DNA of 49,316 nucleotides, taken from the NCBI RefSeq assembly GCF_006538365.1, contig NZ_BJKN01000003.1:13106-62421 (forward strand), read 5' to 3'. The notes below the pieces were generated by a model. That model was not told where the DNA came from and ran no database searches. It saw nothing but the letters and a program-made list of their open reading frames with translations. Within the stretch, counting starts at the first letter, position 1. Each line of letters opens with the position of its first letter. Below are positions 18,439-40,554 of the stretch, piece by piece. Source of the stretch: Moorella sp. E308F. GTDB lineage: Bacteria; Bacillota; DSM-521; Neomoorellales; Neomoorellaceae. The translations under genes were made by a program, and so were the position numbers.

Positions 18439-19394
18439 TCACACCCTCACGGGATGTCTGGGCTGCAATCCTGTCTCGATATGACGACGGTAAAACTTGG
18501 CCGGCGACAGGTAGTGCAAACTGGAGTGCAACCGGCGGTTGTTGTAACGGCTAACGAATTCTACGACCGCCTGATATGCCTCCGCATAGGTCCCAAACTC
18601 GCCCATCGACAAGCATTCATCCTCAAGAAGCCGATGGTACGATTCGATATATGCGTTCATATTCGGTGTCTTGGGCGGTATTCTCTCGTGTAGGACATTC
18701 CATCGCTCACACTCCGATTCAAACAGATGACTTACAAACTGGGGTCCATTATCTGAACGGATGATGGGTAATGGTAAATTCCTTTGAAGAATCTGACGTT
18801 TCCATAATGCTGCTCGAAAAGTTTCAACGGCATGTCTGGCTTCACAGGTTAGACCAATATGATAGCCCACAATCTGCCTGTCATAGACGTCAATGTACGA
18901 CAGCACAAAGAAAAACCGGTCTTCTCCTGCAATGTACCCGTACTTCACATCGACCTCCCAGAGCTGGTTTGGCGCTGTGATAGTGCGGTTCTGGGCCAAA
19001 TTCCGCGGGTGTTTCCGACGGAGGTTCCGTTGTGGCCGCAGAATATCCAGTTCCTTACACAGGCGGTATACCTTTTTCTCGTTCACCACCAGCTCATGAT
19101 CTTGTCGAAGCATATGAGTGAGCTTACGGTACCCGTAGGCGTAACCATCACCGGAAATAGACTCCATAATCCATTCCTTAATCTGTTCATCACTGACCTT
19201 GCGGCCGCCCATAGTCAGTGAATGACCAGGAAACGGACGTCCACCTGAAGTGGTATGCGGCTTTGGTTCATGTGTTAATTGATAATAATAGGTGGATCGG
19301 GAAACCCCCACTATGCGCAGCACGAGAGTAGCGTTGTACCCGGCTGTGATCCACTTGTGCGCAATGGCTACTTTATCTGCAAGTGAGGGTTGGC
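18439..19394 (-). CDS. IS3-family transposase OrfB
   Basis: The DDE integrase-like subunit, about 300 residues. Catalytic residues are visible in WEVDVKYG (first D), RSDNGPQFVS (second D) and NAYIESYHRLLEDE (E). The N-terminal helix-turn-helix region contains GYRKLTHMLR and VNEKKVYRLCKE. The first in-frame ATG is internal; the frame is open upstream into orfA and is most likely entered by -1 frameshifting at the A7G run (minus strand, T's at 19395-19401), as in other IS3 elements, giving an OrfAB transposase. It appears intact. Confidence 0.88.
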
Positions 19395-19709
19395 TTTTTT
19401 TAATAGGTCACGCAATATAGCAATTTCAAGGTCTTTTTCGCCCAGAAGTTGCTTTAGATGGGTATTCTGTTTGTCTAACTCACGGTTCTCTGCAACGAGT
19501 CGGGCGTGTTCCTGCTGAGTAACGTGGGTGGCGTTTCCCTTTGGGCTACTGCCTTGCATGGGTTGGCCGGCTTTGTACTGACGAACCCATCGGCTGACAA
19601 TATTCGGCCGGATATCATACTTCCGAGCAACGACGGAATTATTTCCGGCAGCGATGGCCTGTTCGACGACCTGGCGCTTGAACTCTAGGGTAAATTTCCG
19701 ACGTTCCAC
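19368..19709 (-). CDS. IS3-family transposase OrfA
   Basis: A 113-residue helix-turn-helix protein: RRKFTLEFKRQVVEQAIA, then VARKYDIRPNIVSRWVRQY, followed by a leucine-zipper-like coiled coil (ENRELDKQNTHLKQLL). It binds the IS ends and regulates transposition. AGGAGG-like sequence precedes the ATG. Its 3' end overlaps the start of the orfB frame at a slippery A7G. Confidence 0.88.
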   Translation of the reverse strand: MERRKFTLEFKRQVVEQAIAAGNNSVVARKYDIRPNIVSRWVRQYKAGQPMQGSSPKGNATHVTQQEHARLVAENRELDKQNTHLKQLLGEKDLEIAILRDLLKKANPHLQIK

Positions 19710-20154: not shown

Positions 20155-20275
20155 CTCTTTCGCCTCCTTAATCCTATCTTGGTTGTTTCTTATTTTGCAA
20201 TTTTCAAAAATACCCCCTCCCCACACCTACAGCCCAGATAGCTTTTCAATACAACGACGGCTTATTTAAGCTATA

Positions 20276-20301
20276 ATCAATCTGGTTCCACCCGCAGTTC
20301 G
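20276..20301. repeat. 26-bp repeat, copy 1 (encodes a shared C terminus)
   Basis: Nearly identical (2 mismatches) to 20990-21015. On the minus strand both copies end an open frame with the residues LRVEPD and a stop, so the repeat probably marks related small genes; this copy is a fragment overlapping the intergenic space between 19837-20154 and 20323-20946. Confidence 0.45.
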
Positions 20302-20322
20302 TACACCAAAACGTTAAATCTT

Positions 20323-20946
20323 TTAAAAGTAATTAGGAAATTTTCTTTGGAGTGTTTTTATAACCTCGTAAGCAATTTGACGAATAGCTGCTAGTTCGGG
20401 ATTTAAAATCGGTCCTCGTTCAACACCATTTTCTACATACATCCACCCCAACAAATTATTCCTGCTAAGTTTTGCATAAGCTTCATGTAAGGTTGGGTCT
20501 ACATGCGCTCCTCCATCTTTGTTTGCAACGGCCAAAATTACATCCTTTCTACTAAATTCGTAGCTATCATTTTTAAACACAATTTTATTCCACCATAGAT
20601 CAAAAGGAACCCAAACTCGAGGTCGCCCAGGAGGGCCATCATCCAAGGGAGCCCAATATTCTACTCCTTTAGGCCCCATTTTAATTCCGATTAAACCCAT
20701 ATGACTTATTAGGTTTTTGGGGTTGTAATCATAAGCAGTATCATAAAAAATAGTATTTTTACAGTTGAGCTGGGTTAATAATGACTTTGATCTATTGGTA
20801 TCGTGAACCAAAACACGGATTACTACTGCTAATCTTTTGGCCTCACCTTTAAAACCTTCATCATATGATTTACACGAGTTTTGTAGAAAAATAATTTGGT
20901 CTTTTAAATGGGCATATAAGTCATCTAGTGTTTGGCTTACTCCCAT
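20323..20946 (-). CDS. hypothetical AT-rich accessory protein
   Basis: 207 residues, soluble, not recognised. An N-terminal helical part (LDDLYAHLKDQIIFLQ, LAVVIRVLVHDTNRSKSLL) resembles HEPN-type helical bundles of defence-associated proteins, followed by a beta-rich middle (VEYWAPLDDGPPGRP, VWVPFDLWWNKIVF) and KDVILAVANKDGGAHVDP. The base composition is clearly AT-richer than the host genes, a sign of transfer. The minus-strand ATG at 20946 is preceded by AGGAGAG. A phage-defence or abortive-infection role is only a guess from style and location. Confidence 0.6.
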   Translation of the reverse strand: MGVSQTLDDLYAHLKDQIIFLQNSCKSYDEGFKGEAKRLAVVIRVLVHDTNRSKSLLTQLNCKNTIFYDTAYDYNPKNLISHMGLIGIKMGPKGVEYWAPLDDGPPGRPRVWVPFDLWWNKIVFKNDSYEFSRKDVILAVANKDGGAHVDPTLHEAYAKLSRNNLLGWMYVENGVERGPILNPELAAIRQIAYEVIKTLQRKFPNYF

Positions 20947-20989
20947 ATATATCTCTCTCCTTTAGTCTTAAAATCTTATTTTATGCTAT

Positions 20990-21015
20990 ATCAATCTGGT
21001 TCCACTCGCAGTTTG
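20990..21015. repeat. 26-bp repeat, copy 2
   Basis: Second copy of the repeat at 20276-20301, at the 3' end of the small minus-strand gene 20991-21092. Together the two copies flank the hypothetical gene at 20323-20946, so that gene may have been inserted into or beside a duplicated small gene. Confidence 0.45.
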
Positions 21016-21092
21016 ATTTCGGGTTGATTTCGGGTATTGCCCCGGGGCGGCTTCATGGTGATCTTGGGTTTCTTTTTGAAAAGGGGAAGCAT
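20991..21092 (-). CDS. small basic protein
   Basis: 33 residues, rich in Lys and Pro (PLFKKKPKITMKPPRG), ending KLRVEPD. ATG 21092 has AGAGGAG 8 bases upstream; an in-frame ATG at 21098 is closer to the site. The C terminus recurs at 20278. No known family. Confidence 0.4.
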   Translation of the reverse strand: MLPLFKKKPKITMKPPRGNTRNQPEIKLRVEPD

Positions 21093-35905: not shown

Positions 35906-36397
35906 GTGGGAAAAATAACAAGTTTGGTTAAGCACGTTGTTTTGCTAGTCCTCCTGGCGGCGGCCGGGGTTAAAGATGTGAAGACTTCTAAAATCCCAAA
36001 CGTGTATACCTTGCCGGCCATCGCCCTGGGGGTATTGCTGGCGGGGCCGGGGTGGAAAGCGGCCCTGCTGGATGCCGCGGCAGGCTTTCTTTTGTTTTTA
36101 CCGGTTGTGCTGCTGGGCCTGGCGGGCATGGGGGACGCCAAGCTCTGCGCGGCGGCCGCCTCCCTGATTGGGTTCCAGCAGGCGGGGCTGGGGGCCTGGC
36201 TGGGGACGGTTTATTGCGCTTTATGGGTTGCCTGGCGGGAGGCCCGGAAAGGAAACTTTTTGCGCTGGGCGAAATCGCAAGTTTACGCCGCGCCGCAGGC
36301 CCTGGCAGGCCGGGCGCCGGGAGGGGAAAAATATCCCTTCGCGCCTTTTTTCGCCGCCGGGGTGGCGGCGGCGGTGCTTTGGGGGTGGCTGTCCTGA
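35906..36397 (+). CDS. tadV: TadV/CpaA-type prepilin peptidase
   Basis: 163 residues, a GxGD aspartyl protease with several helices. The two catalytic Asp lie in KDVKTSKIPN and GLAGMGDAKLCAAAAS. It cleaves and may methylate prepilins at the membrane. GTG 35906 follows AGGAGGGG. The short form lacks the cytoplasmic domain of PilD, normal for Tad systems. Its end overlaps the tadE frame. Confidence 0.87.
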   Translation: MGKITSLVKHVVLLVLLAAAGVKDVKTSKIPNVYTLPAIALGVLLAGPGWKAALLDAAAGFLLFLPVVLLGLAGMGDAKLCAAAASLIGFQQAGLGAWLGTVYCALWVAWREARKGNFLRWAKSQVYAAPQALAGRAPGGEKYPFAPFFAAGVAAAVLWGWLS

Positions 36398-36855
36398 AGA
36401 AAGGCGAGGAAGGGCACGTCCTGGAGTTCACCCTTTTTGTGGGGGTCATTTTCTTCTTCATCTTCGGGATGCTGGTCTACAGCATGAGGGCCAACGCCAC
36501 GAGCGTCTGCATCAGCGCCGCCCGCGAGGCGGCCCGCACCCTGGCCGTTACCCATTCCGAGGAGCAGGCCAGGGCCAGGGCGGCGGAGGTGGTCCAGTCC
36601 AGCCTGTACACCGGCGCCAGGGCCGGTACGACCAGGGCGGGAGAACCCCACAAGGCATTTGACCCGGACCAGCCTAACCCTGAACGGCCGGACGTAATAC
36701 TTGAGGACGACGGGACCTGGTGCCGCGCCTGGGTGTATTACCACCTGCCCAACGCGGTGCCGGGACTGCCCAGACTCCTGAACCGCAGGGCTTCTCTCCT
36801 GGACCGGTACATCACGGTGGGCGGGTACGCGGTGTTTAAACGGGAGGTGGAGTGA
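36385..36855 (+). CDS. tadE: TadE-like pseudopilin
   Basis: About 156 residues. EEGHVLEFTLFVGVIFFFIF is a TadE N terminus with the conserved Glu-x-x-Leu-Glu before the helix, followed by an extracytoplasmic domain (CISAAREAARTLAVTH). GTG 36385 is the best start; the long frame upstream overlaps tadV. The stop lies in the 32-base repeat that begins the 1-kb insert. Confidence 0.8.
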   Translation: MAVLKKGEEGHVLEFTLFVGVIFFFIFGMLVYSMRANATSVCISAAREAARTLAVTHSEEQARARAAEVVQSSLYTGARAGTTRAGEPHKAFDPDQPNPERPDVILEDDGTWCRAWVYYHLPNAVPGLPRLLNRRASLLDRYITVGGYAVFKREVE

Positions 36856-36866
36856 TGTTTGGCAGG
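36835..36866 (+). repeat. 32-bp direct repeat, copy 1
   Basis: Begins TTTAAACGGGAGGTGGAG and is identical to 37877-37908, starting 1042 bases earlier. It spans the end of tadE and the tadG ribosome site and ATG; this copy therefore carries a decoy tadG start that stops after about ten codons. Confidence 0.9.
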
Positions 36867-37627
36867 GCAGGCGTTTCCTTTCTTTTGTAAATTATGGTGT
36901 AAAAGTTAAATTGTTTTTTTGTGCCGCGTATTGTCACGGCTTTTCCGGGGTCGATCAATGTGGGAATTGAAGTGCATTTTACGCCTGCGCCGGCAAGCTT
37001 TAATAAGCCGCCAACCGCCAAAGGAGTATAGCCGTAGATTATAGCTCCTTTTATTAATTTTGTTTTTGAAAGGAAGAGCAGCAGCAGCCTGGCGTCTTCA
37101 ACAAGCGCATCTTTCAGGTAAGGGTTCCTTTTATATTTACAGGCTAGTGGCAAGTGGACTTCCAGGTAAAGACTATTCAGGGGGAGGTGTAAGTTCACAT
37201 TTCCTGCGGTTAGAAATTTGAGGGCGAAGTAATAACATAATGGCGATGATAAGTAGAGGCGAAAATATTTTGTTCCGCTTGCCATGCGAATCAAAAAGTT
37301 AATGATTTCTGTAAGGATTAAATACCCGAATATAAAAAGCCAGGGCGCAATTAAACAGAAATGCAAAGGCGGTTGTAAGGAAAAGTTGTTTTTAAAAAAG
37401 ATAAAGATAAGGGGATGAAAGAAATGGATAAAAATAAAATGGAAGGCTACCCAGAAAAAAATACCTGTTATTCCGAAGAGGTTTGCAATGACCCCAATGG
37501 CCGAAAAGGGCAAATGTATGATGGTAAAGATAATATGGAGGATTGCCATCAATGCTTGCTTATATGCCTGTTTATAAAGGGATTGCGGATTGCCTGCTAT
37601 ATGGCCATTGCAGCGATGGTGTGCCAT
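36836..37627 (-). CDS. AT-rich membrane protein in the insert
   Basis: 263 residues on the strand opposite to the operon. About four hydrophobic helices near the N terminus (ILHIIFTIIHLPFSAIGVIA, FIFIHFFHPLIFIFF, IAPWLFIFGYLILTE), then a soluble domain (KYFRLYLSSPLCYYFALKF, NLHLPLNSLYLEVHLPLAC). GGAGG lies 9 bases before the ATG at 37627. The last residues read into the direct repeat, so the original C terminus was probably lost or slightly extended. Not recognised. It overlaps the plus-strand frame at 37424-37627; only one of the two may be used there. Confidence 0.5.
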   Translation of the reverse strand: MAHHRCNGHIAGNPQSLYKQAYKQALMAILHIIFTIIHLPFSAIGVIANLFGITGIFFWVAFHFIFIHFFHPLIFIFFKNNFSLQPPLHFCLIAPWLFIFGYLILTEIINFLIRMASGTKYFRLYLSSPLCYYFALKFLTAGNVNLHLPLNSLYLEVHLPLACKYKRNPYLKDALVEDARLLLLFLSKTKLIKGAIIYGYTPLAVGGLLKLAGAGVKCTSIPTLIDPGKAVTIRGTKKQFNFYTIIYKRKETPALPNITPPPV

Positions 37628-37876
37628 TTTATGATACCTCCGGGCCGGGGAATTTGGCTGTTTTCCCGGCTATTTATCATATTGGTGGCGATCAGGACTT
37701 CCTACGCTGTTATTGTTGAGGATTTATATAATGAATATTGGTATGGCGGCGGCTTTATAGTTTTATTCTTTTACACGCTCCTATCATTATGGATACAAAA
37801 ACATGCGGACTATTCTTACCTGGACAGGTTGCTTGAATAATATGCTTTTAATTCTGCATTTTTATGGAAATTCCTC
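36867..37876. mobile_element. 1.04-kb AT-rich insert in the Tad operon
   Basis: About 1 kb of visibly AT-rich DNA between identical 32-base repeats, splitting tadE from tadG. Outside the insert the GC-rich operon is continuous. It carries two hydrophobic ORFs and no transposase. Insertion by an unknown mechanism, or copy-in by recombination, would explain the 32-base duplication. Confidence 0.65.
37424..37840 (+). CDS. small membrane protein in the insert
   Basis: About 138 residues: an acidic/Cys-containing head (SEEVCNDPNGRKGQMYDGKD), then helices ICLFIKGLRIACYMAIAAM, RLFIILVAIRTSYAVIV and GGFIVLFFYTLLSLWI. AAGGGG is 6 bases before the ATG. The region beyond 37628 is coding only in this frame, which supports it; its first 200 bases overlap the minus-strand gene. 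Not recognised. Confidence 0.45.
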   Translation: MDKNKMEGYPEKNTCYSEEVCNDPNGRKGQMYDGKDNMEDCHQCLLICLFIKGLRIACYMAIAAMVCHFMIPPGRGIWLFSRLFIILVAIRTSYAVIVEDLYNEYWYGGGFIVLFFYTLLSLWIQKHADYSYLDRLLE

Positions 37877-37908
37877 TTTAAACGGGAGGTGGAGTGATGT
37901 TTGGCAGG
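37877..37908 (+). repeat. 32-bp direct repeat, copy 2
   Basis: Identical to 36835-36866. This copy provides the working ribosome site and ATG of tadG. Confidence 0.9.
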
Positions 37909-38436
37909 CTGCGCGGCGAGGAGGGTTTTTTGCCCCTCTTTATGGCTCTGATGATGCCCTTGATAATCTTCGCCTGGGGCCTGGCTGTCGACTTCAGCCG
38001 GGCCCATTTCGTCAAGGCGGGGCTGCAGACGGCGGTCGACGCGGCGGCGCTGGCCGGGGCCATGACGGCTGTGCCGGTGGTGGAGGTGGAATACCATCCG
38101 GTGACGGATGCGGGCGGCAACGTTACTGGAGTGGAGGAGACGGTCACGAAATGGCAGGCGGTTATCCAGGATGAAGCCCTGGCCGCCAGCGAGGCGCGGG
38201 ACGCCTTCCGGGCCAACAGCGGCTTGCTGGACACAAGCGCCGGGGTGGAGTTCGACGAGGGCAGCGGTTACACGGGGGCGAAGCAGGGCGAAGACGCGTA
38301 CGTGGCAGAAGCAAGGGCGAAGGTCAGGACGCCCTGGGCGGGCGCGGCGGCGGCCCTGATGGCCGGCGACAGGTCTTTCTATGAGGCGCCGGTCAGCGCC
38401 AGGGGCGCGGGACAGGCGGTAGTGAAATCGGATTAA
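37894..38436 (+). CDS. tadG: TadG-like pilus assembly protein
   Basis: 180 residues. RLRGEEGFLPLFMALMMPLI is a TadE/TadG N-terminal helix with the Glu-Glu-Gly-Phe motif, followed by DFSRAHFVKAGLQTAVDAAA-type packing and an extracytoplasmic domain. Shorter than proteobacterial TadG, with no von Willebrand domain, as in Gram-positive loci. GGGAGGTGGAG precedes the ATG, inside the second direct repeat. Confidence 0.82.
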   Translation: MMFGRLRGEEGFLPLFMALMMPLIIFAWGLAVDFSRAHFVKAGLQTAVDAAALAGAMTAVPVVEVEYHPVTDAGGNVTGVEETVTKWQAVIQDEALAASEARDAFRANSGLLDTSAGVEFDEGSGYTGAKQGEDAYVAEARAKVRTPWAGAAAALMAGDRSFYEAPVSARGAGQAVVKSD

Positions 38437-39680: not shown

Positions 39681-39851
39681 GAGGCTGGAGGCCTGGATAA
39701 GAGATAAGGGGTGGCAAAAGATGGGGAGATATGAGGTCGGGGCGAGCTGCCGGTTATATTGATAAATTGGCAGGCCTGGGGTAAAATGGAGGTGAGGAAG
39801 GTGGCTGAAATGGTAACACCTTCAATACTTCTGGCCCGGGAGGGACCATTC

Positions 39852-40169
39852 ATGAATGAAAAAATAGTTTATTCTATGGCTAAACGTATACAGGAGAAGT
39901 TTAATCCCGAAAAAATAATAGTTTTTGGCTCCTGGGCGAGGGGTGAAGCCGGGCCGGACAGCGATGTTGACATCCTGGTTATCATGGACTGCACGCGGGA
40001 ACAAAAGCGGGAGATACAAGCAGCCATCAGGAAGGAACTACGGGAGTTTAATGTCCCTAAAGATATTGTAATTGCTAGCACGGAGGACATAAACAAGTAT
40101 AAAGATGCCTGGTGGACTGTTTACCATCCTGCCCTTGCGGAAGGGAAGGTGCTTTATGAACAGCAGTGA
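39852..40169 (+). CDS. MNT-type minimal nucleotidyltransferase (antitoxin)
   Basis: 105 residues. IIVFGSWARGEAGPDSDVDI is the GSxxRG...SDxD nucleotidyltransferase motif. Such proteins adenylylate or bind the partner HEPN toxin and act as antitoxin. GGGAGGG lies 8 bases before ATG 39852; the frame is open to 39759 without support. It overlaps the HEPN gene by 14 bases. Confidence 0.85.
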   Translation: MNEKIVYSMAKRIQEKFNPEKIIVFGSWARGEAGPDSDVDILVIMDCTREQKREIQAAIRKELREFNVPKDIVIASTEDINKYKDAWWTVYHPALAEGKVLYEQQ

Positions 40170-40554
40170 GAGGAAAGAAGAAGCCTTGAAATGGCAGGAT
40201 AGGGCGAGAAGGGACCTGCGGGTGGCGAAGATGCTTTTTTATGATAAAGAACCGGAATTTGATCTGGCTTGTTATTTATCGCAGCAATGCGCCGAAAAAA
40301 GTTTAAAAGCCCTTTTAATCCACCGGGGGATAAGGTTCGCTTACAGGCATGATCTTGACTACCTTGTAGGGTTATTGCCGCCGGGGGAACAAGAAACATA
40401 TTACAACATAAGATTGGAATGGTTGAGCGGATGGGTTACTGAAGGGCGTTATCCTGGAGACACCGCAGGTGCGACAAAAGAAGATGCTCAAAGAGCAATC
40501 GAGATAGCGGAAGTTATATATAATAACGTTTCCAGGTCTTTGCAAAACGGGTAG
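40156..40554 (+). CDS. HEPN-domain toxin
   Basis: 132 residues, all-helical: ALKWQDRARRDLRVAKMLFY, DLACYLSQQCAEKSLKALLI, then AYRHDLDYLVGLLPP, the place of the RxxxxH-type motif, though here it reads R-H-D-L. HEPN proteins of this pairing are RNases or targets of AMP-ylation. GGAAGGTG before ATG 40156, within the end of the MNT gene. Confidence 0.83.
   Translation: MNSSERKEEALKWQDRARRDLRVAKMLFYDKEPEFDLACYLSQQCAEKSLKALLIHRGIRFAYRHDLDYLVGLLPPGEQETYYNIRLEWLSGWVTEGRYPGDTAGATKEDAQRAIEIAEVIYNNVSRSLQNG

Follow-up and report, generated by a model that had tools for sequence, protein, structure and literature searches.

The locus analysed here raises the question of how about 1 kb of AT-rich DNA came to lie between tadE and tadG in the Tad operon of Moorella sp. 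E308F, bounded on either side by the same 32-bp sequence. An earlier note on the window, i.e. the whole stretch of 49,316 nt that was analysed, had described an AT-rich insert with identical 32-bp flanking repeats in this operon, and the description proved accurate in its coordinates as well as in substance. A repeat search returned two direct repeats of 32 nt that are 100% identical (32/32 positions) with a start-to-start distance of 1042, and the 1,010 bp strictly between them have a GC content of 40.1%, as compared with about 60-70% in the neighbouring tad genes and 52.5% in the window. The coordinates of all features are collected in Table 1.

Table 1. Features of the insertion locus in the coordinates of the window
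Feature	Position	Strand	Remarks
tadE	36394..36855	+	Complete; Pfam PF07811
Copy 1 of the 32-bp target duplication	36835..36866	+	End of tadE (VFKREVE, stop) and old tadG start MFGR; single copy at the same place in G001 and G002
263-aa orphan frame	36836..37627	-	N-terminal half is hydrophobic; preceded by a GGAGG ribosome site (37637-37641); last codons enter copy 1
11-codon frame MFGRAGVSFLL	36855..36890	+	Arisen at the old tadG start after copy 1
Inserted DNA	36867..37876		1010 bp, 40% GC; single copy in the genome; not at the orthologous site of G001 and G002
141-aa frame, doubtful gene	37415..37840	+	Predicted to form two or three helices; overlaps the beginning of the 263-aa frame in antisense
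Putative leader motif AGGAATTTCC-N6-ATGCAGAATT (genus form AGGAATTT-N8-ATGCAGAATT)	37850..37875	-	26 bases on the far right of the insert
Copy 2 of the 32-bp target duplication	37877..37908	+	Holds the GGGAGG ribosome site and the ATG that tadG now uses
tadG-like gene	37897..38436	+	Complete, starts from copy 2; Pfam PF13400

The earlier note had suggested looking for empty sites in relatives, and these were found. A DNA search of 61 genomes identified a high-similarity tad region in two congeners, G001, matched to Moorella stamsii DSM 26217 (NZ_PVXL01000021.1), and G002, matched to M. mulderi DSM 14980 (NZ_LTBC01000032.1). In both genomes tadE is followed by one copy of the 32-mer and then directly by tadG, with 32 of 32 positions of the 32-mer being identical in G002 and 30 of 32 in G001. 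As the 32-mer is present in a single copy at these exact empty sites, the event is a clean insertion with an exact 32-bp target duplication. Distant tadG homologues also occur in three further genus genomes (G008, G009 and G010), where the tadG neighbourhoods differ and are uninformative for the insertion site. That the repeats were instead created during assembly is extremely improbable. On either side the window stops exactly at a 10-N gap, and each of the two gaps has the same 127-mer on both sides, a pattern that looks like pieces assembled with k = 127 and then joined. The contig was thus apparently built with k-mers far longer than the 32-bp repeats, and k-mers of this length would resolve such repeats, rendering an artefact unlikely; moreover, neither gene is damaged, and the duplicated bases correspond precisely to the empty site.

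The other members of the operon were assigned by Pfam as RcpC/CpaB-like, ParA-like, a TadA-like ATPase (T2SSE), two TadB/C-like T2SSF proteins and a type IV prepilin peptidase, and tadG is 75% identical in G001 and 74% in G002. At the empty site the stop codon of tadE overlaps the start codon of tadG (TGATG). After the insertion tadE ends normally in copy 1 and tadG starts from copy 2 with a ribosome site of its own, GGGAGG followed by ATG, in line with the earlier proposal that the duplication recreates the tadG ribosome site. Both the TadE and the TadG protein are consequently predicted to be preserved, the sequence indicating that the stop-start overlap was lost and that a frame in antisense orientation now lies between the two genes. 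Just downstream of the Tad operon, at 39759-40554 of the window, a nucleotidyltransferase gene and a HEPN gene form a pair that is likely to be a toxin-antitoxin or defence pair.

From the perfection of the repeats the earlier note had concluded that the event is recent. The perfection itself stands, and the dating is weakened by the relatives, in which the 32-mer is also conserved at 32/32 and 30/32 positions. The 60 bases beside the 32-mer are identical at 58 positions on the left and 52 on the right in G001, and at about 55 of 60 on each side in G002, as counted by eye from the alignment, while the mean identity over the longer tad matches to the relatives is 84% and 75-76%. The site hence lies in a conserved patch with flanks that are about 87-97% identical, which makes it a poor clock for the insertion, and the perfect repeats weakly suggest, without proving, that the insertion is young.

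Two overlapping frames are present in the insert, and both had been regarded as plausible membrane-protein frames before. For the minus-strand frame this view is backed by length and ribosome site: the frame comprises 277 open codons from stop to stop, a length that none of 2,000 dinucleotide shuffles reached (shuffle maximum 196), and GGAGG is located 9 nt before its ATG. It is doubtful for the plus-strand frame, the 153 open codons of which were reached by 6 of 2,000 shuffles and which overlaps the other frame in antisense. The 263-aa minus frame is far longer than expected by chance, and the plus frame is doubtful. Since the plus frame has a hydrophilic start that lies opposite hydrophobic codons of the other frame, the plus frame may be a shadow, and one of the two frames probably is. 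With its good ribosome site the 263-aa frame could be a selected gene rather than scrap.

Searches of Pfam, PHROGs, NCBIfam and PADLOC assigned no family to either frame, all scores being at chance level, and no relatives of the minus frame were detected in 298 other genomes of the phylum, the named genome collection, viral contigs, phages or plasmids. For the plus frame, matches with E-values of 0.002-0.004 in 3 of 299 genomes covered 30-73 residues, and as two of the three crossed stop codons they were treated as chance; in phages a single weak match was obtained (E 0.7), and two further searches with this frame gave no match. By eye the 263-aa frame had resembled DUF2953 (YtfI-like), an assignment that we discarded because PF11167 matches another gene of the genome and not this one, and BLASTP gave E = 10. 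A search of solved structures with the 263-aa frame gave no match. With no alignment supplied, AlphaFold gave models that were too poor to use (mean pLDDT 54.0 and 56.7), and a PDB fold search with the first of these poor models yielded no match at E <= 0.001. Thus, the earlier statement that mechanism and cargo are unexplained remains valid in that known families give no explanation.

A clean, exact duplication is what a transposase produces, and long target duplications are documented in two IS families, the IS1202 group and IS1549/IS1634. The chief rival to the reading that we prefer below is therefore a transposon of a long-duplication family that is non-autonomous or decayed, with the transposase being supplied elsewhere. 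According to the available sections of PMC10132070, elements of the IS1202 group have target duplications of 16-28 bp, a length of about 1.5-2.5 kb, terminal inverted repeats and a large transposase. The insert shares the long duplication with them, but its 32 bp exceed the range given in that text, and it contains neither inverted repeats nor a transposase gene. The accessible part of PMC2266710 gives target duplications of variable length, 8-514 bp, for IS1549/IS1634, so that long duplications are again a common feature, whereas that family differs from the insert by its transposase gene and conserved ends. As the earlier note had stated, the insert holds no transposase: no transposase family was found in either frame with Pfam, PHROGs, NCBIfam or PADLOC. 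Terminal inverted repeats above chance were likewise absent from the insert, the best local score of 6 being matched in 386 of 500 shuffles. The genome, which is 99.98% complete in 10 contigs, contains the insert once, without a second copy or shared ends, and gave 0 matches to the IS1634-family transposase (NF033559). On this evidence we consider a transposon unlikely.

Integration of a small circular DNA by a single crossover, either site-specifically at a core no longer than 32 bp or through homologous recombination, would have the same outcome, with perfect repeats on both sides of the insert and a single copy in the empty site; the 32-mer would then be an attachment-type repeat and not a fill-in duplication. 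However, neither of the hallmarks of a site-specific integrative element was found, as family profile searches detected no integrase in the insert and the palindrome score of the 32-mer lies within chance, being equalled in 205 of 1000 shuffles. Furthermore, the circle would have needed to carry 32 bases of tadE/tadG coding sequence beforehand, and we regard this route as quite unlikely. Elsewhere in the window, at 18439-19709, lies a transposase gene pair consisting of an rve integrase core and an upstream helix-turn-helix-like orf, parts of which have near-identical copies in G004 and G010.

Indications of the origin of the DNA came from its right end. The last 26-29 bases of the insert match G000:C1:1166660 and G002:C14:1583 and had been considered as a shared transposon end, which was rejected as the match proved to be a genus-wide leader motif. 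Allowing up to 3 mismatches, the motif was found at 38 sites in 10 of 11 genus genomes as compared with 2 sites for a reversed control pattern. Among 30 sites that were fetched, 8 are followed on the same strand, at a distance of 27-54 nt, by the start of a gene that has a ribosome site, and in 3 such a gene starts further away, including the motif in the insert, with a distance of 222 nt; for the remaining 19 a simple script located no gene within 300 nt. Judging by the starts of their proteins, the genes downstream of the motif include a cheW-like and a pyrH-like one. Positions 37850-37875 thus appear to be a genus-typical leader element and not a transposon end. As the motif is usual for genes of the genus, the insert looks like ordinary chromosomal DNA of a relative and not like a phage or an IS, which points, short of proof, to a related genome as the source of the captured DNA.

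A donor was found neither in the own genome nor in 299 genomes of the phylum (at the protein level) nor in viral, phage and plasmid collections, an absence that does not exclude capture. At the DNA level, the insert had no match in plasmids and phages at E <= 0.01 and only short chance-level matches in 18 genomes of the family (E >= 0.015), and scanning viral contigs for a pattern of 27 bases near its left end gave no match. An Rfam identity for the region was dismissed, the best match (E 0.25) being far below the gathering score. The copy number also bears on replication template switching, which needs no transposase and can leave flanking repeats of any length: the fork would have moved from the tad template to another one, from which 1,010 bp were copied, and resumed 32 bp upstream of the point of exit. 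The anatomy of repeat and empty site fits such an event, but the copied template should remain in the cell, and there is only one copy in a genome that is 99.98% complete. The template may have been on a plasmid or phage that was lost; template switching appears slightly less likely than integration of a circle.

The reading that we prefer, tentatively and with somewhat less than an even chance of being correct, explains the insert by the capture of a DNA fragment at a staggered double-strand break. The chromosome would have been broken between tadE and tadG by two nicks on opposite strands, 32 bases apart, leaving 32-nt overhangs. A linear fragment of 1,010 bp would then have been joined to both ends of the break, and fill-in of the overhangs by a polymerase would have resulted in one exact 32-bp copy on each side. 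Joining may have been carried out by the cell's own Ku, ATP-dependent ligase and LigD-type polymerase, and the insertion would have been tolerated because it landed at a site where the duplication keeps both tad genes whole. The enzymes at work and the passivity of the fragment are inferred, as are the break and its stagger, the staggered break from the duplication only.

What we found at the locus and in the genome is what capture calls for: the repeat corresponds to a single-copy empty site, transposon ends and further copies are missing, and the cell encodes end-joining enzymes. The Ku gene of the genome is adjoined by a gene for an ATP-dependent ligase, and a gene for a LigD primase-polymerase is located some 2 kb upstream. 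Of the 11 genus genomes 9 have Ku, and those that lack it are 84% and 58% complete. In addition, the minus frame crosses the left boundary of the insert into the duplicated target, which fits a gene that was cut by the end of the fragment. The mechanism has three weak points, namely that a stagger of 32 nt is long, that no donor was found, and that the scanned contig offers no second example. The last point is based on 424,000 bases of contig C3, which were scanned for perfect direct-repeat pairs of at least 18 bp with a spacing of 200-3,000 bp and without a collinear partner, the CRISPR array being left out. Five isolated pairs were obtained, among them that of the insert, which is the only one with a clearly AT-rich interior, and no second clear long-duplication insertion was recognised in these 424 kb.

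Capture at staggered breaks is known from eukaryotes. New introns of Daphnia, which according to the available part of PMC4202315 arise from staggered-break insertions with direct repeats of 4-12 bp, share with the insert the unique DNA, the terminal direct repeats, the lack of a transposase and the empty site in relatives; for Drosophila, too, the accessible portion of PMC3296678 discusses insertions at staggered breaks that leave direct repeats. The insert differs from these cases by a much longer duplication, with 32-bp repeats around 1,010 bp, and by its host, a bacterium with repair of the Ku/LigD kind. In the literature that we searched, which was covered in part, no bacterial insertion of such a kind was found. 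A further reading, which we judge to be highly improbable, is a tiny Moorella mobile element of an undescribed kind, about 1 kb long, without transposase or inverted repeats, that would carry an orphan membrane-protein gene under a genus-type leader and rely on a host enzyme cutting with a 32-bp stagger. A Cas1-Cas2-like integrase would be one candidate for this enzyme, its normal product being a duplication of CRISPR-repeat length, and a CRISPR array with a 30-bp repeat (GTTCGCAGCCTACCTATGAGGAATTGAAAC) is located on the contig of the insert (G000:C3:246554-249984).

AT-rich orphan genes abound in bacterial genomes, and the route by which they entered is rarely visible; at this locus the footprint is intact. 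If end joining made the insertion, the locus would be an example of single-fragment capture and of a route for orphan genes that needs no mobile element, with its general weight being limited by the fact that it is one event in one genome with an orphan cargo.

Other AT-rich segments and repeats were noted in the window and on the contig. A second AT-rich segment (36% GC) lies at 20263-21020 of the window, is flanked by direct repeats of about 39 nt that are imperfect except for 16 nt, and carries one orphan minus-strand frame of 207 aa (20323-20946) without a Pfam or PADLOC family. In G002:C17 the surroundings of this segment are present without it, together with a longer zinc-ribbon-like gene, so that the segment may have resulted from recombination between paralogues. 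An isolated perfect direct repeat of 92 bp is found at G000:C3:333268 and 335896 with a spacing of 2,628 bp. Finally, G000:C3:265046-269490 contains repeated AT-rich cassettes with an interior GC content of 0.34-0.42 and a spacing of about 2.0-2.3 kb, which have in common a GC-rich, terminator-like stretch with a T run behind it.
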